Part shown: in pieces, positions 6,503 through 39,835 of the stretch
Numbering within the stretch: the first letter of the stretch is position 1
Layout of the letters: every line of letters begins with the position of its first letter
Origin: Streptomyces halstedii
GTDB taxonomy: Bacteria; Actinomycetota; Actinomycetes; Streptomycetales; Streptomycetaceae
DNA length: 64,000 nt
Direction: 5' to 3'
Assembly: GCA_000720535.1 (NCBI GenBank)
Contig: JOAZ01000001.1
Coordinates: forward strand, 310,001-374,000
Position numbers and translations under genes: made by a program
The notes under the pieces: generated by a model
Told to the model about the DNA's origin: nothing
What the model saw: only the letters and a program-made list of their open reading frames with translations
Databases searched by the model: none

Positions 6503-7153
6503 GTGGCCATCCCCACGATCGAGCCGTACCCGATGCCCACACAGGGCGACATGCCGGCCAACACGGCCTCGTGGTCGGTGGATCCGTCCCGCGCGGTCCT
6601 GCTCGTGCACGACATGCAGTACTACTTCCTGCGGCCGTTCCCCGCGGGCGCGTCGCCCGTGGACGACCTGCTCGGCAACACCGTCCGGCTCCGGCAGACC
6701 TGCGCCCGGCTGGGCGTCCCCGTCGCCTACACCGCCCAGCCCGGCGACATGACCGACGAACAGCGCGGCCTGCTCCGGGACTTCTGGGGACCGGGCATGT
6801 CCGCCGGACCGCGCGACCGCGCCGTCGTGGACGAACTCGCGCCGGGCCCCGACGACACGGTGTTCACCAAGTGGCGGCCGAGCGCCTTCTTCCGTACGGG
6901 CCTGCTGGACCTGCTCCGGGACACCGGGCGGGACCAGCTCATCGTGTGCGGTGTGTACGCCCACGTCGGCATCCTCATGACGACCGGTGAGGCCTGCGCC
7001 CACGACATCCAGACCTTCGTCGTGGGGGACGCCGTCGCCGACTTCACCCCGGCCGACCACCGCATGACCCTGGAGTACGTCGCCACCCGGTGCGGCATGA
7101 CCGTGACCACGAAGACCGTGCTGCGGCAACTGGAGGAGGCGAGCGGCACATGA
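6503..7153 (+). CDS. phzD: Isochorismatase-family hydrolase, PhzD-like
   Basis: 216 aa. Hydrolyses the vinyl ether of 2-amino-2-deoxyisochorismate (ADIC) to dihydro-3-hydroxyanthranilate plus pyruvate. Matches PhzD closely: catalytic Asp in [13 protein letters not shown] (about residue 37), catalytic Lys in [10 protein letters not shown], and [12 protein letters not shown]. No aryl carrier domain is fused, unlike EntB. GTG start after an AAGGAG site; overlaps the following phzE-like gene by ATGA. Confidence 0.93.
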
Positions 7154-9123
7154 ACCCCGGTGCCCCCGAGGCGTTCGCGGGCGGACCGGACCCGCTGCTG
7201 CGGCGGATCCTGGACGGCGAACCGCCGCCGTTCGCCCTGGTGCACCGGCCGCGGACCACCGGGCCCGACCGGCTCGAACTGATGGTGGGCACGCTCTCGC
7301 GGCCCGGTTCGCTCGCCGGACTGCCCCTGCCGCAGGGCCCCGGCACCTCCCGGCACGACGTCCTCGCCGTCCTGCCCTACCGGCTGCTGGCCGAACGCGG
7401 CTACACCTGCCCGGACGACGGCACACCCCTGCTCGCCCTCACGATCGAGGAACAACGCCTCCTGTCCCGCCGGGAGTTCCTCCGGCACGTCCCGGACCTG
7501 CCGCTGCGGATGGCGGAGCACGGCTTCGACCTCGACGACGACGCGTACGCCCGGACGGCGGGCCGGATCATCCGGGACGAGATCGGCCGGGGGACCGGCG
7601 CCAACTTCGTCTTCCGGCGCACCTACCGGGCGGACCTGGCGGACTGGGGCGTGGCCGCGGCCCTGGCGTTCTTCCGGCGCCTCCTGCGGCGGGAGTCCGG
7701 CGCCTACTGGACGTTCCTGATCCACACGGGCGACCGCTGCCTCGTCGGCGCCACCCCGGAACAGCATGTGGCGCTGTCCGGCGGGGCCGTGACGATGAAC
7801 CCGATCAGCGGCACCTACCGCTATCCGGAGAGCGGCGCCGACCCCGAGGGGGTGCTGGACTTCCTCCGGGACACCAAGGAGTCGGACGAACTGTTCATGG
7901 TCCTCGACGAGGAACTGAAGATGATGGGCCGGGTGTGCGACCGCGGGGGCCGGGTCCGCGGCCCGTACCTCAAGGAGATGGAGCGCCTCGCGCACACCGA
8001 GTACGTCATCGAGGGGTCCAGCGGCCGGGGCGTGCGCGACCTCCTCCGCGAGACGATGTTCGCGCCGACCGTGACCGGGAGCCCGCTGGAGAGCGCCTGC
8101 CGGGTCATCAACACGTACGAACCCCACGGACGCGGCTACTACAGCGGGGTGGCCGCCCTTATCGGCCGGGACGCCGACGGCGGCACCGTCCTGGACTCCT
8201 CGATCCTCATCCGCACCGCCGACATCGACCGGACGGGGAGCCTCTCCCTCGGCGTCGGCGCCACCCTCGTCCGGCACTCCTCCCCACGGGCCGAGGTGGC
8301 CGAGACCCACGCGAAGGCCGCCGGACTGCTCTCCGCCCTGCGCGCCGCACCCGACACCGGGCCCACGGCGGGACACGGCACCGGGGCCCCGGCGCGCGGA
8401 CCGGGACTGCGGGACCACCCGGACGTGCGGGCCGCGCTGGCGGGCCGCAACGCCACCCTGGCCGACTTCTGGCTGGCGGACCCCGACGACCGGGCCGAGC
8501 CCGTGGACCGGCTGGCCGGACGGCGGCTGCTCGTCGTGGACGGTGAGGACACCTTCACCTCCATGGCCCGGCACTGCCTCGCCGCGCTGGGCCTGGACGT
8601 GACGGTGCGCCGCTTCGACGAGCCGTACACGCTCGACGGCCAGGACTTCGTGATCGTGGGGCCCGGCCCCGGGGACCCGGCCCGGCACACCGACCCCAAG
8701 ATCGCCCACCTGCGGGACCTCACCGGGCGCCTGCTGCGCTCCCGGACGCCGTTCCTCGCGGTGTGCCTGGGCCACCAGGTGCTCAGCTCGCTGCTGGGAC
8801 TGGACCTCGTGCGCAGACCGGAGCCCAACCAGGGATCCCAGCAGAAGATCGACCTCTTCGGACGGCCGGAACTCGTCGGCTTCTACAACACGTTCGCCGC
8901 GCGCTCGCCCGGTGCCCCGCTGTCCTGCCCGTACCGGGGCGGCGCGGTCCGGGTCTGCCACGATCCGGGCAGCGGCGAGGTGCACGCGCTGCGCGGTCCC
9001 GGATACGCCTCCGTGCAGTTCCACCCGGCGTCCGTCCTGACGCGCAACGGGACCGCCCTCCTGCGTGACCTTCTGCTCGGCACGGTGCGGGACGGCTTCC
9101 CGCAGGAGGCCCGGGGCGCGTGA
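7150..9123 (+). CDS. phzE: 2-amino-2-deoxyisochorismate synthase (PhzE-like, fused glutamine amidotransferase)
   Basis: 657 aa. N-terminal chorismate-binding domain ([46 protein letters not shown]) fused to a class I glutamine amidotransferase (GPGPGDP, nucleophile Cys539 in CLGHQ). Converts chorismate and glutamine to ADIC. The His625 motif reads QFHPAS, so the usual triad Glu of QFHPES is Ala627; whether glutamine-dependent activity is reduced is unknown. ATG at 7150 overlaps the phzD stop; in-frame residues upstream of it would overlap phzD. Last gene of the operon, followed by a hairpin. Confidence 0.93.
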
Positions 9124-12942: not shown

Positions 12943-15255
12943 CTAGGCGAGTTCCGCCCGTACGGTGCGGGCGGCGGCGACCAGGTTCTCCAGGGAGGCG
13001 CGCGTCTCGGGCCAGGCACGGGTCTTCAGACCGCAGTCCGGGTTGACCCAGAGGCGTTCGGCCGGGATGGCCTCAAGTCCCTTCCGCAGCAGAGCGGCCG
13101 CCTCCTCGGCGCTCGGGACGCGCGGGGAGTGGATGTCGTAGACGCCGGGTCCGGCCTCGCGCGGGTAGCCGTGGGCGGCCAGTTCGCGGGCGACCTGCAT
13201 GTGCGAGCGGGCGGCCTCCAGGCTGATGACGTCGGCGTCGAGGTCGTCGATGGCCTGGACGATGTCCCCGAACTCGGCGTAGCACATGTGCGTGTGGATC
13301 TGGGTGTCCGGGCGCACTCCGGCGGTGGTGAGACGGAACGCCTCGGTGGCCCAGTCGAGATAGGCGGGGCGGTCGGCGGCGCGCAGGGGCAGCGTCTCGC
13401 GCAGGGCGGGCTCGTCCACCTGGATGACCGAGGTCCCGGCCGCCTCCAGGTCGTCGACCTCGTCGCGCAGGGCGAGGGCCACCTGGCGGGCGGTGTCGCC
13501 GAGGGGCTGGTCGTCGCGGACGAAGGACCAGGCGAGCATGGTGACCGGGCCGGTCAGCATGCCCTTGACCGGCCGTTCGGTCAGGGAGTTGGCGTACGCG
13601 GTCCAGCGCACCGTCATCGGGTGCGGCCGGGAGATGTCCCCGGCGAGGACCGGCGGGCGGACGTAACGGGTGCCGTAGGACTGGACCCAGCCGTGCCGTG
13701 TGGCGAGGTAGCCCGTCAGCTGCTCGGCGAAGTACTGCACCATGTCGTTGCGTTCGGGCTCGCCGTGCACCAGGACATCGATACCGGCCTTCTCCTGGAA
13801 GGCGAGGACGTCGCGGATCTCGTTCTCGATGCGCCGCTCGTATCCGGCGGTGTCGATCCGGCCGGCGCGCAGGTCGGCGCGGGCGGTGCGCAGTTCGGTG
13901 GTCTGCGGGAACGAGCCGATGGTGGTCGTCGGCAGCAGCGGCAGTCCGAGGTGGGCGCGCTGGGCGGCGGTGCGCTCGGCGTACGGCTGGGAGCGGCGGC
14001 CGTCCGCGTCGGTGACGGCGGCGGCCCTGGCCCGTACGGCGGGGTCGCGGGTGATCGGGGACCGGGCACGGGAGGCCAGGTCGGCCCGGTTGGCGGCGAG
14101 TTCGGCGGAGACGGCACCGGTGCCCTCGGACAGGCCCCGGGCGAGGGTGACGATCTCCGCCGTCTTCTGCCGGGCGAAGGCGAGCCAGCGAAGGATCTGC
14201 GGGTCGATGTCCCGCTCCGCCGCCGCGTCGAGCGGGACGTGCAGCAGGGAGCAGGAGGCGGCCACGTCCACCTGGCCGGCCAGGCCGAGGAGCGTCCCCA
14301 GCGTGGACAGGGACTTCTCCAGGTCGTTGATCCAGATGTTGCGGCCGTTGACGACACCGGCGATCAGACGCTTGCCGGGCAGTCCGCCGACGGCGGCGAG
14401 GGCGTCGAGGTTGGCCGCGGCGGAGTCGGTGAAGTCGAGGGCGAGACCGTCGACGGGCGCCTTCGCCAGGACGGGCAGGGCGTCACCGAGCCGGTCGAAG
14501 TAGGAGGCGACGAGGAGCTGGGGGCGGTCGGTGAGGCCGCCCAGGTCGCGGTAGGCGCGGCCGGCGGCGTTCAGCTCGGCCGGGGTGCGGTCCTGGACGA
14601 GGGCGGGCTCGTCGAGCTGGATCCACTCGGCACCGGCGGCCCGCAGGTCGGCCAGCACCTCGGCGTAGACGGGCAGCAGCCGGTCCAGGAGGGTCAGCGG
14701 CTCGAAGTCGGCGGCCACACCCGGCGCGGGCTTGGCCAGCAGGAGGTAGGTGACGGGGCCGACCAGCACGGGACGGGCGGCGAGGCCGAGCGCGAGGGCT
14801 TCCTTCAGCTCGGTGACCTGCCGGGTGGAGTCGGCCGTGAAGACGGTGTCCGGACCCAGTTCGGGCACCAGGTAGTGGTAGTTGGTGTCGAACCACTTGG
14901 TCATCTCCAGGGGCGCCACGTCCTGGGTCCCGCGGGCCATCGCGAAGTAGCCGTCGAGGGCGTCGGCGCCGACGGCCGCCCGGTGCCGCCCGGGGATCGC
15001 GCCGACCATGACACTGGTGTCCAGCACATGGTCGTAGTACGAGAAGTCGCCGGTCGGCACCTCGTGGACACCGGCGTCGGCGAGCTGCCGCCAGTTGCTC
15101 CGGCGGAGCTCCGCGGCGGTCTCCCGGAGGGCGTCGGCGGTGACCCGGCCCTTCCAGTAGCCCTCGACGGCCTTCTTCAGCTCCCGGTCGGGGCCTTGGC
15201 GGGGGTAGCCGTACACGGTGGCGCGTGCTGCCGCGGCTGCGGGCTGTGCTGTCAC
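12943..15255 (-). CDS. metE: Cobalamin-independent methionine synthase
   Basis: 770 aa, full length for the family. Transfers methyl from 5-methyltetrahydrofolate to homocysteine without B12. Duplicated barrel; C-terminal zinc site includes HTHMCYAEF and NPDCGLKTR; GSFPQT begins the catalytic half. GTG at 15255 follows GAAGGAG at normal spacing. A cobalamin riboswitch precedes it, so the gene should be silenced when B12 is available and the B12-dependent MetH can work. Confidence 0.97.
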   Translation of the reverse strand: MTAQPAAAAARATVYGYPRQGPDRELKKAVEGYWKGRVTADALRETAAELRRSNWRQLADAGVHEVPTGDFSYYDHVLDTSVMVGAIPGRHRAAVGADALDGYFAMARGTQDVAPLEMTKWFDTNYHYLVPELGPDTVFTADSTRQVTELKEALALGLAARPVLVGPVTYLLLAKPAPGVAADFEPLTLLDRLLPVYAEVLADLRAAGAEWIQLDEPALVQDRTPAELNAAGRAYRDLGGLTDRPQLLVASYFDRLGDALPVLAKAPVDGLALDFTDSAAANLDALAAVGGLPGKRLIAGVVNGRNIWINDLEKSLSTLGTLLGLAGQVDVAASCSLLHVPLDAAAERDIDPQILRWLAFARQKTAEIVTLARGLSEGTGAVSAELAANRADLASRARSPITRDPAVRARAAAVTDADGRRSQPYAERTAAQRAHLGLPLLPTTTIGSFPQTTELRTARADLRAGRIDTAGYERRIENEIRDVLAFQEKAGIDVLVHGEPERNDMVQYFAEQLTGYLATRHGWVQSYGTRYVRPPVLAGDISRPHPMTVRWTAYANSLTERPVKGMLTGPVTMLAWSFVRDDQPLGDTARQVALALRDEVDDLEAAGTSVIQVDEPALRETLPLRAADRPAYLDWATEAFRLTTAGVRPDTQIHTHMCYAEFGDIVQAIDDLDADVISLEAARSHMQVARELAAHGYPREAGPGVYDIHSPRVPSAEEAAALLRKGLEAIPAERLWVNPDCGLKTRAWPETRASLENLVAAARTVRAELA

Positions 15256-15424
15256 GGAAATCTCCTTCGCGAGACGACTCCTTGAGATCCCGGAGACGGG
15301 ACACGGGCGCGAAGGGGTGACGGACCGGACGGAACACACGCCCTGTGCGGGAGGTTCCGTCTGGTATGTACGCCGACCCGCCCACGAGGTCACCGGGATG
15401 TCCGCACGCGATCGTTCGCGTACG

Positions 15425-15630
15425 GGCAACAGGCAGGTCTTCGGACTCGTGGGCACGTCTGCCGGGGCAGACACCTACTGGCCGTCGCTTCCCAGGTCCG
15501 TGCGGACCCAGTGCGTATGACGGCGGTCGTTCCCACTCACCGCTGCGGGGCAGTCCCGGATTCCCACCGGGTTCCCTCTTACGACGCGCCTGCCTGGCGG
15601 ACAGGGCGAACCAGCTGCACCGGTCAGCCT
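15425..15630 (-). promoter_or_regulatory. Cobalamin riboswitch (metE leader)
   Basis: Read on the - strand, the leader contains the conserved GGTGGGAATCCGGG core at about 15560, GACTGCCCCGCAGCGGTGAG, and the late conserved AGTCCGAAGACCTGCC around 15440. These are hallmarks of the Rfam cobalamin riboswitch. It lies between the promoter region and the metE ribosome site; limits are approximate. Confidence 0.93.
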
Positions 15631-15899: not shown

Positions 15900-17312
15900 T
15901 CAGGCGCCCCAGCGCAGGGCCAGGGTGTCGCCCGCGTGGACGACCGTGCCCCGGGTGGCCGCCGTGAAGGCCGCGCCGTCGGCGCTGACCCGCCAACTGC
16001 CGGAAGCGCTGTTGGCCTTGCCGTTGAGCGCGGTGACGGTGCCCGTCCCGGACGACGGGGTCACCGACGAGACACAGCCGGACGGGGCGGCGGAGCCGGT
16101 CGCCGCGTCGAGCACCGCGCCCAGCGTGGTCGTGGTCCCCGTCGGCGTGAACGAGACGGAGCACACCTTCAGACCGCCGGCGCCGTCGTCGACGGTGAGG
16201 GCCAGCTTCGCGGCCGTACCGGAGGTGAAGGAGCTCTGGGCCACCCAGCGGGGCGCGCCCGAGGTGGCCGGCACCGGGGGAGCGGCGGTGAAGCCGCCGC
16301 CCGCCACGGCACGCAGCCCGTCGACGGAGGCGTAGGCGGAGGGGGTGGTGTCGGAGGGCTGGTACTTGAAGCCGCCGCCCGGGTTGAACTGCTGGGCTAT
16401 CAGGAAGTCGACGGGGGTCTTGCCGGCCGAGGTGAGGAAGTCGCCGGTCTGCGCGTCGATGCCGCAGGCGTTCAGACCGGACACCGCCCAGCCGTTGGAG
16501 TCGGTGTTGACGCCGAACATGGCGTTGAAGGCACCGCTGCCCGGTACCAGCTTGCTCTTCAGGAACGCCTTGGCCCGGGTGATGCCGCTGTCGGTGTGCG
16601 GGACGCCGGAGACGCACAGCGCGGCCATCGCCGCACCGGTCATGTCGATGTCGCTGGTGGTGCCGAGCTGCCCCGGATCGCCCTCGGCCTTGCCGTAGTT
16701 CCAGCCGCCGTCGTCGTGCTGGTTGGCCCGGACACGGGTGACCAGCCGGTCGAGCAGGGCCTGCGGGACGCGTGGGGTCCCCGCTTGGGTGGCGGCGCCG
16801 CCGAGGGCGAGTGCGGCGAAGACGGTGCCGTTGAAGTTGGCGGACGGGCCGAAGTAGCCGGGCTCGGCGTTCTGCCAGTAGCCGTAGATGTCGGCGACCA
16901 GGTTGCGGGAGGCGGAGACGCGGGCCGGGTCGATACCGGCGGCGTAGGCGTTGAGGGCCGCCCGCTCGTAGTCGGTGACCACCGGGGTCGCCGACGGCCA
17001 GCTCGCCGTGGACAGCAGGGCGCGGTAGACGGTTCTCGCGTTCTTCGTGGTGTCCCCGCCCGGGGTGACGTCCACGGCGGCCGTGCCCGCGGCCGCGAAC
17101 GCGCTGAACGCCCACTCGTTCGAGAGCCCCGGGCCGGCGTACGAACCGTCGGCGGCCTGGAGGGATGTGAGGTACGCGACACCGTTGGTCTTCGAGGTGG
17201 CGATCTGCGCGGGCGTCGCGGTGGCGGCCGCGGGCACGACGGTCAGACAGAGGGCGCCGAGGGCCGCGGCCGCGACGAACACCGGACGGCGGGAGGACGA
17301 AAGACGGGGCAT
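15900..17312 (-). CDS. Secreted transcobalamin-like protein (alpha-toroid plus DUF4430 beta domain)
   Basis: 470 aa. Sec signal peptide (hydrophobic run ending near PAAATATPA). Residues about 35-320 are alpha/alpha-toroid repeats of the prenyltransferase/squalene-cyclase fold (DDGGWNYGKAEGD, DIDMTGAAM, NPGGGFKYQ). Residues about 350-470 resemble DUF4430, the beta domain of transcobalamin and intrinsic factor (TTLGAVLDAATG, GWRVS-like core, HAGDTLALRW). The order toroid then beta domain is that of animal B12 carriers. No cyclase DxDD catalytic motif was seen. A B12 riboswitch precedes it. Inferred role: extracellular corrinoid capture. ATG at 17312 follows AAGGAG. Confidence 0.82.
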   Translation of the reverse strand: MPRLSSSRRPVFVAAAALGALCLTVVPAAATATPAQIATSKTNGVAYLTSLQAADGSYAGPGLSNEWAFSAFAAAGTAAVDVTPGGDTTKNARTVYRALLSTASWPSATPVVTDYERAALNAYAAGIDPARVSASRNLVADIYGYWQNAEPGYFGPSANFNGTVFAALALGGAATQAGTPRVPQALLDRLVTRVRANQHDDGGWNYGKAEGDPGQLGTTSDIDMTGAAMAALCVSGVPHTDSGITRAKAFLKSKLVPGSGAFNAMFGVNTDSNGWAVSGLNACGIDAQTGDFLTSAGKTPVDFLIAQQFNPGGGFKYQPSDTTPSAYASVDGLRAVAGGGFTAAPPVPATSGAPRWVAQSSFTSGTAAKLALTVDDGAGGLKVCSVSFTPTGTTTTLGAVLDAATGSAAPSGCVSSVTPSSGTGTVTALNGKANSASGSWRVSADGAAFTAATRGTVVHAGDTLALRWGA

Positions 17313-17409
17313 GGCCTGCTCCTTGGATGAGGAGGCGCCGACCGGACCCGTGTCCTCGGAAGTGCGGGAGCAGCGGGCAGGGCCGCCGCCCGAACGCGTG
17401 GACCGGCTT

Positions 17410-17555
17410 CCTGTGGTGCGTCGCCGCACGGGCATTCGGGCTCGGCACGACGTCCCGTCGTGCCATACCGCTGCGCGTCAGCCCTGGACTCCCACCAGGT
17501 TCCCCCATGTGGCAGCCCAGGACGCTACCCGAGGGGCACGACTCCCGCCAGAAGG
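17410..17555 (-). promoter_or_regulatory. Cobalamin riboswitch, - strand
   Basis: On the - strand the leader of the secreted toroid protein reads GGGAACCTGGTGGGAGTCC, then GGGCTGACGCGCAGCGGTA and a distal hairpin GGCACGACGGGACGTCGTGCC, followed by GAGCCCGAATGCCCG. This fits the B12 core (GGGAA..GGTG..A.TCC..CTG.CGC.GC..GT). Limits approximate; more compact than the metE switch. Confidence 0.85.
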
Positions 17556-17631
17556 CCCCCGGAGCGCCCGCGCCCGCCGGGGACCGCACCTTGACGGCGT
17601 CCGTGGACGCGTGCTCAAATCCGCCTGATAC

Positions 17632-17735
17632 GCACTGAGTTCCAGGGGAAGCCGGTCGAAACCCGGCGCTGACCCGCAACCGTAGGCCCGGCACCGCCGG
17701 GCGAGCCGGAACACCTGGGACGAGATCTTCAGCGA
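17632..17735 (+). promoter_or_regulatory. Cobalamin riboswitch, + strand
   Basis: Contains GGGGAAGCCGGTCGAAACCC, GGCGCTGACCCGCAACCGTAGG, a GC-rich P-stem GCCCGGCACCGCCGGGC and GAGCCGGAACACCTGGGA, the hallmark sequence of B12 riboswitches. It leads into the wall-anchored toroid gene and ECF operon. A small hairpin ACGCCGT/ACGGCGT (17739-17760) directly after it could be part of the expression platform. The interval 17313-17853 holds this divergent riboswitch pair and its promoters, no gene. Confidence 0.9.
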
Positions 17736-17853
17736 GAAACGCCGTCGCGGACTACGGCGTGGTCGACCAGCCCTGCCGTGCGGCACACGCCCCCGCGGTC
17801 AAGGCCCTTCGCCACGTTCGTGTGCCCGCGGACATCAGGACGAGGGGGCCGCG

Positions 17854-20664
17854 GTGGGGACCGGAAGACGAAGAGGCGCACGGCGCGGGGCCACGGGCCT
17901 GTCGGCGCTGCTGTCGGCGGTGGGCCTCGTGGTCGCCGCCTGCACGACGTTCGTCACCGCCGCGCCGGCGGCGGCCGCTCCCCTCGACGCCTGCACCGCG
18001 ACGAAGGGCGCCGTGGTCGCCGTGGACTTCGGTCCCTTCGGCGGGACGGTCCGGCGCGGCTGCGACACCACACCGACGACCGGCTACGAACTCCTCCACG
18101 AAGCGGGCTTCACCACGACCGGCACCCAGCACGACGGGCCCGCCTTCATCTGCCGCATCGGCTACGGCTCCGAGGTCCAGCAGCCCACCGAGGACAAGGA
18201 GTCCTGCGTCCTCACCCCGCAGGCCACCGCCTACTGGTCGTACTGGATCGCCTCGCCCGGCCAGGACACCTGGCGCTACAGCCCGTACGGCGCCATGGCC
18301 CGCACGCTCCGGGACGGTGACGTGGACGCCTGGGTGTTCGGCGGCACCGACATCGGCGGCACCACGGGCGGACCCGCCTTCACCCCCGACGACGTGCGGA
18401 CCGGCGGCGGTACGACACCCGGCCCCGGCACCACCCCCACGGTCCCGGCCGGGCGGATCGACGTACCGGCCGCGGCGACCTGGGTCAGGAGCGGCCTGAC
18501 GGACGGGGAGCGCGTCGTCGACGAGGGCGCCGGCACCGCCAGCCTGCCGCTGACCACGGAGGCCGCGTACGCCCTGGCCGCGGCGGACGGCGCGAGTGCC
18601 ACCCTGGACAAGGTCACGTCCTTCCTCGCCGCCCGCACCGACGCCTACGCCTACCCGGCGGGCGCGGACCAGGCCCCCGACGCGACCGCCGCCGCCCGCC
18701 TGGCCCTGCTCGCGGACATCACGGAAGCCGATCCGCGCGACTTCGGGGGACACGACCTGGTCGGCGACCTGGCCGCCCACGTCTGCGCCTCCGGGCCCGG
18801 TTCCGGCGGCGGCCCCACGCCCGGCTGCACCGCCGAGGGCGACTTCCGGAACGCGACGTACGCCGACGGCCAGGCGCTGGCCGTGCTGGCGCTGCTGCGG
18901 GCCGGTGTGAAGCCCCCGGCCGCCACCGTGGACCGGCTGACCCAGGTGCAGTGCGACGACGGCGGCGTCACCAGCATCCTGATCCGCCCCGGCGAGTACT
19001 GCGACGGCGACCCCGCCACCACCGGCCTGGTGACCCTGGCCCTGCACCGGGCGGGCGGCCAGGACGCGGCCGTCGCCAAGGCCCGGACCTATCTCGGCAA
19101 GGCCCAGCGCGAGGACGGCTCGTTCCCCGGCTGGACGGGATCCACGACCGGCAGCGTCACGGCCACCGCCCACGCGGCACAGGCCCTCCGCGCGCTGGGC
19201 GACACCGAGCGGTCGGACGCGGCCGTCTCCTGGCTCGCCGGTGAGCAACTGGCGGGCGGAGGCTTCGGGTTCGAGGAGGGTGCCACCGACCCCGCCCTGT
19301 ACCCGACGGCCCCCGCCGTCCTCGCCGGTACGGGAACCGACCTGGCGCGGCTGACGACGGCGGCACCCGAGCCCACCGACCCGCCGACCACCGAGCCGCC
19401 CGTCACCGTGCCGCCCGTCACCGTGCCGCCCACGACCGGGCCGCCCACCACCGGCCCCACCGCACCGGCGGACGGGGGCCCCGACCTCGCCAGGGGCGTC
19501 GCCTACCTCACCGCCCCCGCCCAGCTCGCGCGGGGCCGCTACTACCCGGCCGTACCCGGCTCGGACCGCGCGGACTTCGGTCTCACCGTCGACGGCGCCT
19601 ACGCGCTCGCCGCCACCGGGCTCGACGACAACGCGCTGCGCGGCATCGTCGACTTCCTCGACGACGGCGGCAAGGACGGCGAGGGCCGCACCGTGCGCGA
19701 CTGGACCGGGATCGACACGCCGTACGTCCTCGGAGGGCAGCTCGGCAAGGCGGCCCTGCTGGCCCAGGTGGTCGGCCGCGACCCCCGGAACTTCGGCGGC
19801 GGAGACCTGATCGCCGCACTCGACGCGGCCGTGTGCGCCGCGCCGGCCAAGAGCCCGGACCGGAGGTGCGCCGCCGAGGGGGCGTACACCTACACGGAGT
19901 CCGTGTTCGGCCAGTCCCTCGGGGTCATGGCCCAGTCGCGCGCGGGCGAGGAGGCGGCCGTGCGGAAGCCGCTCGCCTACCTGGAGAGCCTTCAGCTGGA
20001 CAGCGGCGCGTGGCCCAGCCTGATCCCCTCCACCGGGGACGCCGACGTCGACTCCACCGCCATCGCCGCGATGGCCCTGGACCTGGCGGGCGGCGAGGAG
20101 GCACGGGCGGCCGTGGCCGAGGCGCTCGACTGGATCGCGGGCCGGCAGCTTCCCGACGGCGGGTTCCCCGGCGCGGCGGGCAACTCGGTCAACTCCGCCG
20201 CCCTCGCCGTCCAGGGACTCTCGCTCGACGCGCCGAAGTACGCCGACCGGATCGCGAAGGCGCGGGCGTTCCTGGCCTCCCAGCAGAACGCCGACGGCGG
20301 CTTCAACGTCGCCAAGGAGGGCCAGCGGGGTTCCGACGTGCGGGCGTCCACCCAGGCCGTCGGCGGATCCACCGGCATCTCCTTCGGGGCCCTGAACCGC
20401 GATCTGACCGGCACCACCCCGCCGCCCACGCCCGGCGCGACCCCCTCCGCACCCGTCATCGTCACCCCCGGCGGCACGGAGGGCGGCACCGGCGGCATCG
20501 TCGACACCGGCATCGCCGACACCGGCGCGGGCGGCGGCGGGGCGCTCGCCTCCACCGGCGTACAGGCGGGTCTCCTCGCGGCGTGCGGGGTGGCGCTCGT
20601 CGCCGCGGGCCGGGCCGCCGTGGTCCTCGCCCGCCGCCGCACGGCCGCAGGGGGGCGGCCATGA
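17854..20664 (+). CDS. Wall-anchored DUF4430-like/double alpha-toroid protein (putative corrinoid receptor)
   Basis: 936 aa. Signal peptide (ends near AAPAAAAP), a Cys-rich beta domain at about 45-175 (TGYELLHEAGF, AFICRIGYG, AYWSYW), then two alpha-toroid blocks (about 190-490 and 545-850; EDGSFPGW, PDGGFPGAAG, ADGGFNV) joined by a Pro/Thr-rich linker (PPTTEPPVTVPP). C-terminus: LASTG at 898-902, hydrophobic segment, RRR tail: an LAxTG class E sortase signal, so covalent attachment to peptidoglycan is expected. First gene of a B12-riboswitch operon; overlaps the next gene by ATGA. Ligand is inferred, not shown. GTG start; weak upstream GAGGGGG. Confidence 0.82.
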   Translation: MGTGRRRGARRGATGLSALLSAVGLVVAACTTFVTAAPAAAAPLDACTATKGAVVAVDFGPFGGTVRRGCDTTPTTGYELLHEAGFTTTGTQHDGPAFICRIGYGSEVQQPTEDKESCVLTPQATAYWSYWIASPGQDTWRYSPYGAMARTLRDGDVDAWVFGGTDIGGTTGGPAFTPDDVRTGGGTTPGPGTTPTVPAGRIDVPAAATWVRSGLTDGERVVDEGAGTASLPLTTEAAYALAAADGASATLDKVTSFLAARTDAYAYPAGADQAPDATAAARLALLADITEADPRDFGGHDLVGDLAAHVCASGPGSGGGPTPGCTAEGDFRNATYADGQALAVLALLRAGVKPPAATVDRLTQVQCDDGGVTSILIRPGEYCDGDPATTGLVTLALHRAGGQDAAVAKARTYLGKAQREDGSFPGWTGSTTGSVTATAHAAQALRALGDTERSDAAVSWLAGEQLAGGGFGFEEGATDPALYPTAPAVLAGTGTDLARLTTAAPEPTDPPTTEPPVTVPPVTVPPTTGPPTTGPTAPADGGPDLARGVAYLTAPAQLARGRYYPAVPGSDRADFGLTVDGAYALAATGLDDNALRGIVDFLDDGGKDGEGRTVRDWTGIDTPYVLGGQLGKAALLAQVVGRDPRNFGGGDLIAALDAAVCAAPAKSPDRRCAAEGAYTYTESVFGQSLGVMAQSRAGEEAAVRKPLAYLESLQLDSGAWPSLIPSTGDADVDSTAIAAMALDLAGGEEARAAVAEALDWIAGRQLPDGGFPGAAGNSVNSAALAVQGLSLDAPKYADRIAKARAFLASQQNADGGFNVAKEGQRGSDVRASTQAVGGSTGISFGALNRDLTGTTPPPTPGATPSAPVIVTPGGTEGGTGGIVDTGIADTGAGGGGALASTGVQAGLLAACGVALVAAGRAAVVLARRRTAAGGRP

Positions 20665-21620
20665 GCGTCCCGCCCTCGCGGCGAGCGGCCCGGCTGACGG
20701 CCGCGCTCGCCCTGGCCTTCGCCGCCCTGACCACGGGCGCGGCACCCGCCGGGGCCGCCCCGCAGCCGATGGGGCGGTGCACCACCGGCTCGGGGGCGGT
20801 GCTCGCCGTCGACTTCAGCCGATGGGGCGGGCCCATCTACCGCTCCTGCGGCTCGACGCCCACCACCGGCTACGAACTGCTCAACCAGGGAGGCTGGCGC
20901 ACCACCGGTACCGGGCACGACGGACCGGCGTTCATCTGCCGCATCGGATACAGCGGTTACCGGAACGGCACGCAGTTCCCGCCGCCCGAGCAGGACGACT
21001 GCGTCCTCACCCCGCCCGCCTCGGCCTACTGGTCCTACTGGCACGCCGGGCCCGGGGCGGACGACTGGGAGTACAGCCAGCTCGGCGCCATGCTCTACAA
21101 GCCGAAGCCGGGCAGCGTGGACCTGTGGATCTTCGGCGGCACCGACATCGGGGGCACCCAGGGCCGCCCCCAGGTCACGCCCGACCAGCTCCGGGCCCAC
21201 AACACCAGGCCCAGCGGCGGGGGCGAACCGGCCTCCACCGCGCGCGCTCCCGCGCTGCCGCCCGGCACCGACACCGGCCCGGCCCCGGTGAGGACGGAGC
21301 CGGAGCGGCCGACGTCCCCCACGGCCCCGGAACCGCCCGCGAGCCCGTCACCCACCGCGTCCCCCAGCCCCTCGGCCGGCGAGACCGGTGAACCGAGCGA
21401 GTCCGCCGAGCCCACCGGGTCCGCCGAGGTGTCACCGCCCGCCACGACCGGTCCGGCGGGCGGGTCCGGCGGCGACACCCGGGTCGTCGACGCCGCCCCG
21501 GCGGCGGACGCGAAGCACGACGCGGGGTCGATGGTGCCGGTGGCGGCGGGCGGCGCGCTGGTCCTGCTCGTGGGCGTGGCGGCCGTGTTCGCGGCCCGGC
21601 ACAGACGCCGCGGCGCGTAA
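20661..21620 (+). CDS. Membrane-anchored extracellular DUF4430-like protein
   Basis: 319 aa. Signal peptide (AAPAGAAPQ), a beta domain (about 35-170) paralogous to the N-terminal domain of the upstream protein (CTTGSGAVLAVDF, TGYELLNQGGW, HDGPAFICRIGY, SAYWSYWHA, four conserved Cys), a long Pro/Ser/Thr-rich stalk, then one transmembrane helix (VPVAAGGALVLLVGVAAVF) and RHRRRGA. No sortase motif, so tethered by the helix. Lies between the wall-anchored receptor and EcfT; inferred to pass corrinoid to the ECF importer. Confidence 0.8.
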   Translation: MSVPPSRRAARLTAALALAFAALTTGAAPAGAAPQPMGRCTTGSGAVLAVDFSRWGGPIYRSCGSTPTTGYELLNQGGWRTTGTGHDGPAFICRIGYSGYRNGTQFPPPEQDDCVLTPPASAYWSYWHAGPGADDWEYSQLGAMLYKPKPGSVDLWIFGGTDIGGTQGRPQVTPDQLRAHNTRPSGGGEPASTARAPALPPGTDTGPAPVRTEPERPTSPTAPEPPASPSPTASPSPSAGETGEPSESAEPTGSAEVSPPATTGPAGGSGGDTRVVDAAPAADAKHDAGSMVPVAAGGALVLLVGVAAVFAARHRRRGA

Positions 21621-21625
21621 CGGCC

Positions 21626-22855
21626 GTGGCCCGCACCGACCCCGGCCCCGCCGAATCGCCCCCGCCCGGCCCCGGCACGCCCCCGCCCGGCCCGGGTGTG
21701 CCCCCGCCCGGCCGCGCCGCCCCGGACACCGGGGGGCGCCGGCTGCCCCGGATCCTGCATCCGGTCGCCTGGTGGATCTGGGCGCTCGCCCTGGCCACCG
21801 CCGTCAGCCGCACCAACAACCCGCTGCTGCTGTTCCTGGTGCTCGCGGTCCTCGGTTACGTCGTGACCGCCCGCCGCACCGAGGCACCCTGGGCCAGGGG
21901 CTTCGTGTACTACCTCTACCTGGCCGCCACCGTCGTGGCGATCCGCGTCCTGTTCCGGGCCGTCTTCGCCACCGGCATCACCCCGCACGACCACTTCCTC
22001 TTCGCGCTTCCGCACATCCCGACCCCCGACTGGTACGCGGGCATCCAGCTCGGCGGACCCGTCTCCCTGGAGGCCCTCCTGTCGGCCGCCACCGACGGGC
22101 TCCGGCTGGCCTGCATGCTCTGCTGCATCGGCGCCGCCAACACCCTCGCCAACCCCAAACGCGCCCTGCGGGTGCTGCCCGGCGCCCTGCACGAACTCGG
22201 CGTCGCCGTCACCGTCGCGATCAGCGTCGCCCCCCAACTCGTCCAGAGCGTACGGCGCGTGGCCCGCGCCCGTCGGCTGCGCGCCGGCCGGAGCAAGGGC
22301 CTCACAGCGCTGCGGGGCATCGTCGTACCCGTCCTGGAGGACGCCCTCGAACGCTCCCTGCGCCTCGCCGCCGGGATGGACTCCCGGGGCTACGGGCGCG
22401 CCGGCACCGCGAGCCGCCGCTCCCGCCGGGTGACCGGGGCCCTGATGCTGCTCGGCATGTGCGGACTGTGCGCCGGGGCCTACGGGCTCCTCGACGCCAC
22501 CGCGCCCGCCTTCCTCGGGCTGCCCGCCCTGGGCGTCGGCGCCCTGCTGTGCGTGGGCGGACTGCGCACCGGCGGCCGCCGGGTCACCCGCACCACCTAC
22601 CGCCCCGACCCGTGGCGCCTGCCCGAATGGGCGGTCGCCGGGACGGGCGTACTCTCCGCGCTCCTGCTGTTCGCGAACATCGGGTACGACGCCGCCGAGC
22701 TGAACCCCTCCATCTACCCGCTGAGCTGGCCGACCCTGCCGCCGGTGCCGACCCTGGCGATCCTGCTCGCCGGAACGGCCGGGTTCCTCGCCCCGCCGCC
22801 GACCGAGCCGCGCGCCGTGCCCGCGCGGCGCACGGAGAAAGCCGCGACCACGTGA
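21626..22855 (+). CDS. ecfT: ECF transporter transmembrane subunit EcfT
   Basis: 409 aa with an unusual Pro-rich N-terminal extension (about 35 residues) and about seven hydrophobic segments. The EcfT coupling region is visible: an Arg-rich stretch RRVARARRLRAGR and GMDSRGYGR, the usual short-motif contact to the ATPases. GTG start 5 bases after the upstream stop; overlaps the ATPase gene by GTGA. Couples ATP hydrolysis in EcfA to the S component. Confidence 0.88.
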   Translation: MARTDPGPAESPPPGPGTPPPGPGVPPPGRAAPDTGGRRLPRILHPVAWWIWALALATAVSRTNNPLLLFLVLAVLGYVVTARRTEAPWARGFVYYLYLAATVVAIRVLFRAVFATGITPHDHFLFALPHIPTPDWYAGIQLGGPVSLEALLSAATDGLRLACMLCCIGAANTLANPKRALRVLPGALHELGVAVTVAISVAPQLVQSVRRVARARRLRAGRSKGLTALRGIVVPVLEDALERSLRLAAGMDSRGYGRAGTASRRSRRVTGALMLLGMCGLCAGAYGLLDATAPAFLGLPALGVGALLCVGGLRTGGRRVTRTTYRPDPWRLPEWAVAGTGVLSALLLFANIGYDAAELNPSIYPLSWPTLPPVPTLAILLAGTAGFLAPPPTEPRAVPARRTEKAATT

Positions 22856-24540
22856 TCACCTTCGAACAGGTCTCCGTCCGGTACGACGACACGGACCGGC
22901 CCGCGCTGAGAGACGTCGACCTCACCGTCGAGGAGGGCGAACTCTGCCTGGTCGTCGGGCACACCGGCGTCGGCAAGTCCACCCTCCTCGGCACCGTCAA
23001 CGGCCTCGTCCCGCACTTCACCGGCGGCACCCTGTACGGCAGGGTCACCGTCGACGGCCGGGACACCGCCCACCACCCGCCCCGCGAACTCGCCGATGTG
23101 GTCGGTGTCGTCGGCCAGGACCCGCTGGACGGATTCGTCACCGACACCGTCGAGGAGGAACTCGCCTACACGATGGAGCAGTTGGCCATCGCCCCGCACG
23201 TCATGCGTAAGCGGGTCGAGGAGACCCTGGACCTGCTGGGCCTCGCCGACCTGCGCCGCCGCGCGCTGTACGAACTCTCCGGCGGCCAGCAGCAGCGGGT
23301 CGCCATCGGGGCCGTCCTCACCGCCCACCCCCGCGTCCTCGTCCTGGACGAACCCACCTCGGCCCTCGACCCCAGCGCGGCGGAGGAGGTCCTCGCGGCC
23401 GTCACCCGCCTCGTCCACGACCTCGGCGTCACCGTCCTGATGGCCGAACACCGCCTGGAACGCGTCGTCCAGTACGCCGACCGGGTGCTCCACCTCCCCG
23501 GCGACGGACGGGTGGTGGACGGACCGCCCGCCGAGATCTTCCGTACGTCGTCCATCGCGCCCCCGATCGTGGACCTCGGCCGCGCGGCCGGCTGGTCCCC
23601 CCTCCCGCTCTCCATCCGCGACGCCCGCCGCGCCGCGGCCCCCCTGCGAGGCCGCCTCGCCGGACAACCGCCCCCGCCCGCCGCGGCCCCCCGTGGCGCG
23701 GGCCGGGCGGCGGAAGCCCTGCTGAAGGCGCGGGGCGTCACCGTCAGCTACCAGGGGGTCCCCGCCGTACGGGAGGTCGGCCTCGACCTGCGCGGCGGCC
23801 AGGTCACCGCGCTGATGGGACGCAACGGATCGGGGAAGTCCTCCCTGCTGTGGGCCCTCCAGGGCTCGGGCCCCCGCACCTCGGGGACCGTCGAGGTCGC
23901 CGCCGCGGCGGACGGGAAGGCGCCGGGGGACCCCCACACCATGGCCCCGGCCCTGGCGCGCCGCGCCGTCGGACTCGTCCCGCAGACCCCGTCCGACCTC
24001 CTCTACCTGGAGAGCGTCCAGCAGGAACTCGCCCAGGCCGACCGGGAATCGGCCGCCGCCGGGCCGGGGGCCGGGACCGCCCGCGCCCTCCTCGACCGGC
24101 TCGCGCCCGGCATCGACGGCGCCACTCACCCCCGGGACCTGTCGGAGGGCCAGAAGCTCGCCCTGGTCCTGGCGATCCAGCTGTCGGCCGCGCCCCGGGT
24201 GCTGCTCCTCGACGAACCCACCCGCGGACTCGACTACCGGGCCAAGACGGAGCTGATCCGGATCGTCGGCACGCTCGCCGGGGAAGGCCGGGCCGTGGTG
24301 ATCGCCACCCACGACGTCGAGTTCGTCGCCCGCGCGGCGGACCGCGTCGTCGTCATGGCCCAGGGGGACGTCGTCGCCGACGGGCCGACCCGCGACGTCA
24401 TCGTCGCCTCACCCGTCTTCGCCCCGCAGACGGCCAAGATCCTCGCCCCCCTGCCGTTCCTCACCGTCGACCAGGTCACCACCGCCCTCGACCGGCTCGC
24501 CACCGGCCCGGCGGGCCCCGGAAGCGGGGCGGACGCGTGA
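22852..24540 (+). CDS. ecfA: Fused double ATPase of the ECF transporter (EcfA-EcfA')
   Basis: 562 aa with two complete ABC domains. First: Walker A GHTGVGKSTLL, signature YELSGGQQQR, Walker B VLVLDEPTSALD. Second (from about residue 290): GRNGSGKSSLL, degenerate signature DLSEGQKLA, Walker B VLLLDEPTRGLD. Most ECF modules use two separate ATPases; here they are one polypeptide. GTG start within the ecfT stop. Confidence 0.92.
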   Translation: MITFEQVSVRYDDTDRPALRDVDLTVEEGELCLVVGHTGVGKSTLLGTVNGLVPHFTGGTLYGRVTVDGRDTAHHPPRELADVVGVVGQDPLDGFVTDTVEEELAYTMEQLAIAPHVMRKRVEETLDLLGLADLRRRALYELSGGQQQRVAIGAVLTAHPRVLVLDEPTSALDPSAAEEVLAAVTRLVHDLGVTVLMAEHRLERVVQYADRVLHLPGDGRVVDGPPAEIFRTSSIAPPIVDLGRAAGWSPLPLSIRDARRAAAPLRGRLAGQPPPPAAAPRGAGRAAEALLKARGVTVSYQGVPAVREVGLDLRGGQVTALMGRNGSGKSSLLWALQGSGPRTSGTVEVAAAADGKAPGDPHTMAPALARRAVGLVPQTPSDLLYLESVQQELAQADRESAAAGPGAGTARALLDRLAPGIDGATHPRDLSEGQKLALVLAIQLSAAPRVLLLDEPTRGLDYRAKTELIRIVGTLAGEGRAVVIATHDVEFVARAADRVVVMAQGDVVADGPTRDVIVASPVFAPQTAKILAPLPFLTVDQVTTALDRLATGPAGPGSGADA

Positions 24541-25370
24541 GCATCCGCCCCGCCTCGGCGATCCGCCTCACCCCGCGTGCCGGAGTGGTCATCGCCCTCG
24601 CCGCGTTCCTCGGAGTGGTCGCCTTCTTCTGGCCGTTCGTCGTCGCGCCCGGGACGTTCGGCTCGAACTACGCGCCGCCGCTGATCTTCGGCGTCCTGCT
24701 CGTCCTCGTCCTGTGCGTCGTGCTCTCCGAGATCGCCGAAGGGGGCATCGACTCCAAGGCGCTGGCGATGCTCGGCGTGCTGTCCGCCGTCAACGCCGCC
24801 CTGCGCCCGCTGGGTGCGGGAACGGCGGGCATCGAGACCGTCTTCTTCGTCCTCGTCCTGGCCGGACGGGTCTACGGCCCCGGCTTCGGCTTCACCCTCG
24901 GCTGCACCTCCCTGTTCACCTCCGCGCTGATCACCGGCGGGGTGGGCCCGTGGATGCCGTACCAGATGTTCGGCTGCGCCTTCGTCGGCATGCTCGCCGG
25001 ATTCCTGCCCCGCGCCACCGGGCGGCGCGAAGTGGTCATGCTGGCCGTCTACGGCTCACTGTCCGGCTATCTCTTCGGGTTCCTGCTCAACCTGTCCTTC
25101 TGGCCGTTCTCCCTCGACCCGAACAGCTCGATCGCCTACCTGCCCGGCCTGCCCTTCACCGAGCAGTGGCACCGCTACGTGGCCTTCGACGTCGCCACCT
25201 CACTCGGCTGGGACACCGGCCGTGCCGTCACCAACCTGGTCTGCGTCCTCCTCGCCGGACCGGCGGTCCTCACCACCTTCCGCCGGGCCGCCCGCCGCGC
25301 CCGCTTCCAGGCCCCCGTCCGCTTCCGGGAGCCGGAGGCCGCCAGGGCGACGGAGCGGCCCGAGGGGTGA
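24537..25370 (+). CDS. ECF transporter substrate-binding (S) component, predicted cobalamin-specific
   Basis: 277 aa, six or so membrane helices, with the glycine-rich GFTLGCTSLFTSALITGGVGPWMPYQMFGC segment typical of S components in the CbrT/HtsT group. CbrT in Lactobacillus is a B12 S component (known). Specificity here rests on the B12 riboswitch at the head of the operon. GTG start overlaps the ecfA stop. Last gene; ends 13 bases from a convergent gene. Confidence 0.83.
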   Translation: MSIRPASAIRLTPRAGVVIALAAFLGVVAFFWPFVVAPGTFGSNYAPPLIFGVLLVLVLCVVLSEIAEGGIDSKALAMLGVLSAVNAALRPLGAGTAGIETVFFVLVLAGRVYGPGFGFTLGCTSLFTSALITGGVGPWMPYQMFGCAFVGMLAGFLPRATGRREVVMLAVYGSLSGYLFGFLLNLSFWPFSLDPNSSIAYLPGLPFTEQWHRYVAFDVATSLGWDTGRAVTNLVCVLLAGPAVLTTFRRAARRARFQAPVRFREPEAARATERPEG

Positions 25371-38768: not shown

Positions 38769-38779
38769 CACCCTCATTC

Positions 38780-38957
38780 CGGATGGAACGCCGAATCCTG
38801 CCGCCGTCCGGGAACCCGACCACATCTCGTACGGCAGGAGCGGGGGACCCAGGTAAGTGCCGATCCGGTATCCGGAGCGGCTCGGGGTGAAGCCGCAGTC
38901 ATCTGCGGCCGGGCATCTCCAGCTCGAACCCGACAGCTCACTTCGTAGGCGACGGAG
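38780..38957 (+). promoter_or_regulatory. c-di-AMP (ydaO/yuaA) riboswitch
   Basis: Conserved ydaO elements in order: GCCGAATCC and CCGGGAACCCG near the 5' end, GGGGGACCCAGGTAAGTG, CGGGGTGAAGCC, CGAACCCGACAGCTCACTTCGTAGGCG and the closing GACGGAGAGG that also carries the ribosome site. This class binds c-di-AMP and in actinobacteria commonly precedes cell-wall hydrolase genes, as here. Limits approximate. Confidence 0.93.
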
Positions 38958-38968
38958 AGGAATTCAGC

Positions 38969-39835
38969 ATGCCCGCAATGGCCAATCGCCGTCGTTCCAA
39001 GCGCAGTTCACTCACTCGCGGTGTCATAGCCGTGACCACGGGTGGAGCCGCCCTCGCCCTTCCCGTGATCGGCGCCACCGGTGCCTTCGCCGCCCCGGCC
39101 CAGCCGGCCGCGGCCGAAAAGGCGGCGGTCTCGGCCCCCGTCTCCGGCAAGACGATCTCCGGAAAGAACTCGGAGACCGCCACCTATTCCGTGATCTTGG
39201 GTGACTCCCTTGCCAAGATCGCCCGCGACCATTCCGTGAGCGGTGGCTGGCAGCAGCTGTACAAGGACAACCGAAAGGTCGTCGGCGGTAATCCCGACCT
39301 CATTCACCCGGGCCTGAAGCTCACCCTCGGATCCGCGGCGAACAAGGCCGCCGGGACCGAGAACAAGGCGGCGGACACGTCCGCGTCCGAGGCCTCGGAT
39401 TCCGCGGTCCGCACGGAGAGCGCCGACCGCGCCGACCGTTCGGAGCGCGCCGGCAACGAGGTCGTCGCGCAGGGCACCCCCGTCGCCGCGGTCGAGGCCG
39501 CCCCGGTCGCGTACACCAACGACCTGGACGGCTGGATCAAGGAGTCGCTGGCGGTCATGGCCCAGCACGGCATCCCCGGCACCTACGAGGGCATCCACCG
39601 CAACATCATGCGTGAGTCCTCCGGCAACCCGCTGGCCATCAACAACTGGGACATCAACGCGATCAACGGCGTCCCGTCGAAGGGCCTGCTCCAGGTCATC
39701 GACCCGACCTTCCAGGCCTACCACGTGCCCGGTACGTCGATGGACAGCTACGACCCGGTCGCCAACATCACGGCCGCGTGCAACTACGCCGCCGACCGCT
39801 ACGGCTCGATCGACAACGTCTTCGGGGCGTACTGA
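38969..39835 (+). CDS. Secreted LysM/SLT cell-wall lytic protein
   Basis: 288 aa. Signal peptide (GVIAVTTGGAALALPVIGATGAFAAPA), LysM peptidoglycan-binding motif at about 70-115 (YSVILGDSLAKIARDHSV ... NPDLIHPGLKLTL), an Ala/Asp-rich linker, and a lytic transglycosylase (SLT) domain at about 200-288 with the catalytic Glu in NIMRESSGNP and GLLQVIDPTFQ. Related to the RpfA/Swl group of spore and vegetative wall hydrolases. Expression should respond to c-di-AMP through the leader riboswitch. Confidence 0.93.
   Translation: MPAMANRRRSKRSSLTRGVIAVTTGGAALALPVIGATGAFAAPAQPAAAEKAAVSAPVSGKTISGKNSETATYSVILGDSLAKIARDHSVSGGWQQLYKDNRKVVGGNPDLIHPGLKLTLGSAANKAAGTENKAADTSASEASDSAVRTESADRADRSERAGNEVVAQGTPVAAVEAAPVAYTNDLDGWIKESLAVMAQHGIPGTYEGIHRNIMRESSGNPLAINNWDINAINGVPSKGLLQVIDPTFQAYHVPGTSMDSYDPVANITAACNYAADRYGSIDNVFGAY

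Follow-up and report, generated by a model that had tools for sequence, protein, structure and literature searches.

A riboswitch-controlled locus of Streptomyces halstedii encodes transcobalamin-like exported proteins beside a putative corrinoid importer of the energy-coupling factor type

In animals, vitamin B12 is carried by transcobalamin, intrinsic factor and haptocorrin, each of which is one secreted protein with an alpha-toroid followed by a beta domain. In bacteria, the energy-coupling factor (ECF) transporter ECF-CbrT of Lactobacillus delbrueckii is a cobalamin importer with a published crystal structure; its S component is described as being itself the protein that binds the substrate, and a single ECF module serves the group II S components (Santos et al. 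2018, PMC5997447). Bacteroides uses BtuG, a surface-exposed lipoprotein that captures B12 ahead of the importer (PMC6143338). The actinobacterial work that a literature search brought up concerns mycobacteria, namely BacA (PMC10960864) and M. marinum (PMC11237697). Here we describe a locus at positions 15900-25370 of a window of 64,000 nucleotides (the window being the whole stretch of DNA analysed) from contig JOAZ01000001.1 of the 7.74-Mb genome of Streptomyces halstedii (GCA_000720535.1). The locus consists of two divergent transcripts that encode three exported proteins, P0001, P0002 and P0003, and a complete ECF transporter (EcfT, a fused EcfAA' ATPase and an S component). We consider it probable that these proteins form a system for the capture and import of corrinoids, in which P0001 is released, P0002 is anchored in the wall and P0003 is tethered to the membrane, and all three supply an ECF importer of their own.

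An earlier note, made from the sequence alone, had listed three exported proteins and an ECF importer at this locus, with a B12 riboswitch heading each transcript. The corresponding open reading frames (ORFs), domains and riboswitches are all present:

15900-17312 (-): P0001, 470 amino acids (aa), exported, with a signal peptide recognised by eye and no anchor seen; alpha-toroid at about 16446-17111, C-terminal beta domain at about 15903-16268
17430-17505 (-): core of the cobalamin riboswitch heading P0001 (RF00174, 33.5 bits)
17612-17717 (+): cobalamin riboswitch heading the P0002-P0003-ECF operon (RF00174, 32.2 bits)
17854-20664 (+): P0002, 936 aa, exported, with an LASTG tail and a membrane helix; N-terminal beta domain at about 17989-18366, alpha-toroids at about 18502-19341 and 19534-20364
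20661-21620 (+): P0003, 319 aa, exported; beta domain at about 20772-21170, a Pro/Ser/Thr linker and a C-terminal membrane helix
21626-22855 (+): EcfT (PF02361 CbiQ, 3.5e-9)
22852-24540 (+): fused EcfA-EcfA' ATPase, two ABC domains, with Walker A, signature and Walker B motifs intact in both
24537-25370 (+): ECF S component (PF12822 ECF_trnsprt, 6.6e-8)

The transcripts start between 17312 and 17854. P0001 makes up the leftward one, and the five genes of the rightward operon overlap their neighbours by 4 bases or sit 5 bases apart. EcfT, both ATPase halves and the S component are encoded together, as in group I ECF transporters, and the S component is dedicated to this operon. To judge from their sequences, P0001 is probably released, because no anchor was seen in it, and the LASTG tail and membrane helix of P0002 are a probable wall anchor.

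The similarity to transcobalamin that had been claimed for the exported proteins was borne out by fold prediction for P0001 and for the beta domain of P0003. In Foldseek searches against 350,542 PDB chains, the top matches of both were animal B12 carriers. The P0003 beta domain was modelled from an alignment of 54 sequences, with a predicted local distance difference test score (pLDDT) of 93 and a predicted template modelling score (pTM) of 0.89. Fifteen of its top 16 matches were animal transcobalamin or haptocorrin, several being repeat entries of one protein. Ranks 1-13 were all transcobalamin (probabilities 0.97-1.00) and included 5np4, a structure of the human beta domain on its own with cyanocobalamin; rank 14 was the bacterial 3u7z, which we take to be a DUF4430 protein, rank 15 was again transcobalamin and rank 16 haptocorrin. 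Beyond rank 16, among the 50 rows shown, probabilities were 0.13 or lower, apart from 0.44 for another chain of 3u7z. For P0001, the top 15 chains all belonged to transcobalamin, haptocorrin or intrinsic factor and outranked the first terpene cyclase; E was <=0.001 for 14 of these chains, and the alignments spanned 440-491 columns including gaps. The models thus predict the transcobalamin beta-domain fold for P0003 and a transcobalamin-like fold for the toroid and C-terminal beta domain of P0001.

An alpha-toroid was recognised in P0002 by Pfam and in P0001 by profile and fold. The toroids of P0002 match PF13243, of the squalene-hopene cyclase type (1.3e-13). Pfam picks up the toroid of P0001 only weakly (0.012), and a toroid profile that had been started from P0002 does so strongly (1e-42), a value that is flattered because the same frames had gone into the iterations of the profile. 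The beta domains had been described as DUF4430-like, which held only in part: PF14478 (DUF4430) was found at E<=1 in 9 of 15 P0001 relatives (best 2e-4) and in none of 54 P0002/P0003-type domains, so for the latter the link to transcobalamin is the fold alone. We rejected DUF4430 as a name for the P0002/P0003 domains, given the absence of Pfam matches in all 54 and of a significant match to the C-domain of P0001. DUF4430 exceeds its curated cut-off in 2 of 148 genomes. One of these two genomes, from the same genus, has a small, separate exported DUF4430 protein (6.5e-8) just behind a related ECF operon and a downstream toroid protein (L146:889-1653 (+), the same region as L054:15370-16134).

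The earlier note had spoken of Streptomyces, which turned out to be too narrow, as relatives occur in many actinobacterial families. The S family was found in 108 of the 197 genomes that were sampled from the class, and a scan of a species-genome collection gave at least 585 confirmed S relatives. The best 80 of these, kept with names, came from Streptomyces, Kitasatospora, Actinacidiphila, Amycolatopsis, Micromonospora, Nocardioides, Janibacter, Tessaracoccus, Lentzea, Knoellia and others. We collected 100 neighbourhoods, these 80 plus 20 more (one being the second copy in the S. halstedii genome), of which 13 were too short upstream. Of the 87 that were counted, many from close relatives and six of which had helped to train the riboswitch model described below, 83 have a beta gene upstream of S on its strand, 68 have a toroid in the vicinity and 81 have a riboswitch upstream on that strand. 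The presence of S itself is no evidence here, because the loci were collected by it. At the level of whole genomes (n=197), 98 have a beta domain, 93 have both S and beta, 15 have S alone, 5 have beta alone and 84 have neither (Fisher p 4e-33, uncorrected for relatedness), and of the 109 beta matches, 93 have an S match no more than 9 kb away. A survey of co-occurrence across actinobacteria had been proposed in the earlier note, and the set proved to be widespread among them. Among the five beta-only genomes, three consist of short contigs in which ecfT adjoins the beta gene. The other two, the 1.2-Mb genomes G125 and G155, have a lone exported beta protein and no ECF importer (L148:7162-7686 (-), L149:7179-7703 (+)); these genes lie near an aldo/keto reductase gene, recognised by eye, that also adjoins the whole operon of small genomes related to them. 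P0001 was rejected as a common partner, being present in 1 of the 197 class genomes (S. halstedii itself) and in 22 of the 199 that were counted from the genus. The S. halstedii genome has a second locus of the SCO2321/SCO2322 type on contig C21. In one locus of the same genus (L048, G039:C8:216000-232500), S is 88% identical to that of the window, EcfAA' matches only over residues 226-546, and EcfT, beta and toroid are missing; it is possibly a broken or rearranged operon.

Both riboswitches of the divergent transcripts barely exceed the RF00174 gathering score of 31.5 bits, each aptamer lying 5' of its transcript. A sequence-only model of the riboswitch core was built from 15 examples (2 from the window, 8 from six loci that were later searched and 5 from elsewhere in the same genome). 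Run over 1.74 Mb of related loci, it matched 135 times at E<=0.05. All 14 fetched loci in which a P0001 relative occurs show the same back-to-back pair as the window, on the minus strand at the P0001 side and on the plus strand at the operon side, and because of this it is unlikely that the two weak matches arose by chance. Rfam at gathering thresholds detected riboswitches of the cobalamin clan in 12 of 18 loci scanned, 10 of them upstream and on the strand of the operon; in L054 and L057 the matches are on the opposite strand. In L054, a peptide-type ABC binding protein (SBP_bac_5, 6983-8542 (-)) stands under a cobalamin riboswitch (8575-8768 (-)), divergent from the related ECF operon, and is a candidate for a further binder of corrinoids or precursors.

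The S. halstedii genome has 14 cobalamin riboswitches. According to a family scan, nine head metE, two BtuF-like genes, an aldehyde dehydrogenase gene, nrdI, a ribonucleotide reductase gene, cobD, cobN and cbtB. The remaining five head the two transcripts of the locus, the toroid gene of the second operon on C21, a gene for a FhuF-like protein and one small, unassigned ORF. Two features next to the locus belong to this regulon:

12943-15474 (-): metE, B12-independent methionine synthase (PF01717, 3.8e-152)
15415-15630 (-): third cobalamin riboswitch, heading metE (RF00174, 92.7 bits)

The two BtuF-like genes match PF01497 (4.6e-34 and 1.7e-33), a family that also includes siderophore binders, and each is followed by a FecCD-type permease, as seen by eye. 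The claim that the ECF system works instead of BtuF/BtuCD does not fit these genes. As the genome has both B12 biosynthesis genes and two riboswitch-headed BtuF-like genes, the system looks like an additional scavenging route and not a replacement of BtuFCD. The FhuF-type [2Fe-2S] protein 3' of its cobalamin riboswitch (L006:2110-2841 (+)) is divergent from nrdI and is a possible corrinoid or ferric reductase. A cobalamin riboswitch on a 30-kb contig (L009:1501-1653 (+)) precedes a 124-aa frame without a Pfam match. Elsewhere in the window, a c-di-AMP riboswitch (38779-38966 (+)) precedes an exported LysM-like protein (38969-39835, domain assigned by eye) and looks ordinary.

Based on fold and regulation, we infer that corrinoids are what the exported proteins bind and what the importer transports. 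At low intracellular cobalamin, the two back-to-back riboswitches would permit expression. P0001 would be secreted and released and, in the manner of transcobalamin, would hold a corrinoid with its toroid on one side and its C-terminal beta domain on the other. P0002, in the wall through its sortase-type tail, and P0003, tethered to the membrane, would be built from these two kinds of half-site as well, although P0003 has only the beta half. Both would then hand the corrinoid inward to S, and EcfT and EcfAA' would drive import. The wall and membrane tethers that had been claimed for the binders recur in stop-to-stop frames across the loci. Of these frames, 114 hold just a beta domain, 54 have a single and 9 a double toroid, 14 read beta-toroid, 9 read beta-toroid-toroid and 2 read toroid-beta, and 15 join a toroid to a P0001-type C-domain. 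Neither an L[AP]xTG motif nor a membrane-like tail was found in the 15 P0001-type proteins; the motif is present in 18 of the 23 frames with beta followed by one or two toroids, and a membrane-like tail in 85 of the 114 beta-only frames. LAxTG is a class E sortase signal of Streptomyces. This pattern of tails fits released, wall-bound and membrane-bound stages. Of the two toroid-beta frames, which have the domain order of transcobalamin, the one in L100 is the clean case; the one in L099 may be two genes run together, because a wall-anchor-like segment separates its domains.

Several observations weigh against this interpretation. The Foldseek E-values for P0003 are weak (best 0.018, none <=0.001) and stand without a control search using an unrelated beta domain; the claim is carried by the unanimity of the matches and their probabilities. 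The P0001 model is mediocre (pLDDT 60.8, with the C-domain mostly about 80) and superposes poorly as a whole (TM score 0.27-0.33, root mean square deviation about 20 A), and therefore does not establish a closed, ligand-holding arrangement. P0001 itself has no PF14478 match, and a search of its whole genome with PF14478 was empty. Among solved chains there was no sequence match to transcobalamin or the other animal carriers, and the profiles of the P0002/P0003-type beta domain and the P0001 C-domain did not align significantly with each other (hhalign probability 0.2, E 0.35). We therefore call the P0001-type, P0002/P0003-type and animal carrier domains families of the same fold and not proven homologues. 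Finally, no toroid was detected in 19 of the 87 loci, so a toroid is not obligatory. The description of S as CbrT-like is also unsupported by sequence: a profile of its family matched no PDB chain at E<=1, the presence of a CbrT chain in the searched PDB copy being unchecked. In NCBIfam, just one family recurred among the matches, a folate-type S family matched by 14 of 31 members; the S component of the window reaches 19.7 bits for it, where 60 would be needed.

The ligand could be different. The ECF transporter might import another compound of the B12 pathway, such as cobalt, dimethylbenzimidazole or alpha-ribazole, and the extracellular proteins might bind that compound. Pfam names the EcfT family CbiQ, 'cobalt transport', and, according to one study, transporters of cobalt and of precursors are also under cobalamin riboswitches (PMC3766115). 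However, Pfam detected neither CbiM nor CbiN, the cobalt S component, among the proteins of the operon, the genome has a riboswitch-headed cbtB, and by fold the exported proteins resemble binders of whole corrinoids, so that we regard this possibility as unlikely. The part played by the toroids could also be different, as Pfam calls them squalene-hopene cyclase or prenyltransferase, and they might be exported enzymes related to terpene cyclases or prenyltransferases, or structural proteins of the wall, that are merely co-regulated. However, these proteins are exported, and DxDD, the motif of class II terpene cyclases, is missing from P0001 and P0002; out of 103 toroid frames, just 3 have it within the toroid region. 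As the structure search with P0001 also favours the animal B12 carriers over any cyclase, we rejected a terpene cyclase identity and consider such a role very improbable.

A further possibility is that the extracellular proteins do bind corrinoids, not to feed the ECF importer but to deny them to competitors or to buffer them. The lack of an anchor on P0001 and its accessory distribution would suit such a role, as would the retention of a lone beta gene without S in the two small genomes. The tight linkage between the beta gene and EcfT-A-S argues the other way, and we think that withholding or buffering is improbable. Capture of corrinoids for the adjoining importer remains the interpretation that we prefer. 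It is also possible, and this we put forward more tentatively, as somewhat short of an even chance, that these are true counterparts of transcobalamin in actinobacteria: P0001 would be a soluble carrier of corrinoids, released much as other scavengers are, retrieved by split transcobalamins tethered to wall and membrane and delivered to the ECF importer, and the animal carriers would descend from such modules or share an ancestor with them.

The transporter part of the operon has a likely precedent. CbrTUV was reportedly predicted in 2009 by Rodionov et al. as a group I ECF transporter under a B12 riboswitch with its own A and T, and the transporter here is probably CbrTUV. That prediction is not known to include transcobalamin-like partners, and if the extracellular proteins here are indeed carriers dedicated to the importer, we know of no other ECF importer of this kind. 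P0002 and P0003 are distantly related to the NCBIfam families SCO2321 (NF053823) and SCO2322 (NF040672), which are called after S. coelicolor proteins and whose names state no function, and fall below the cut-offs (P0002, 125.5 against 300 for NF053823; P0002, 18.5 and P0003, 21.1 against 85 for NF040672). A search of the open literature, with subscription journals and preprints mostly outside it, found no account of bacterial transcobalamin-like proteins or of their coupling to ECF transporters. The new element would be the transcobalamin-fold extracellular partners of a putative B12 ECF importer. This suggests that ECF importers, in which S is usually taken as the sole binding protein, can have extracellular helpers, and the frequency of the S family in the class makes the system a concrete and widespread candidate for actinobacterial cobamide uptake.

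As with ECF-CbrT (PMC5997447), a cobalamin importer of the ECF type is proposed here, but T, AA' and S are encoded in one operon together with exported proteins. The binders would share with BtuG the capture of B12 at the cell surface ahead of an importer; BtuG differs in being a Bacteroides lipoprotein (PMC6143338). The animal carriers resemble P0001 and the L100 frame in that a single protein contains an alpha-toroid and then a beta domain of the same fold, whereas the bacterial domains are mostly split over separate or reordered proteins with wall or membrane anchors. The animal route proceeds by receptor endocytosis, whereas the bacterial set adjoins an ECF importer. The fold of the animal B12 carriers is thereby placed in bacterial operons regulated by B12, which bears on the origin of these carriers and points to a bacterial route of B12 scavenging made of the same kinds of parts as the human one.

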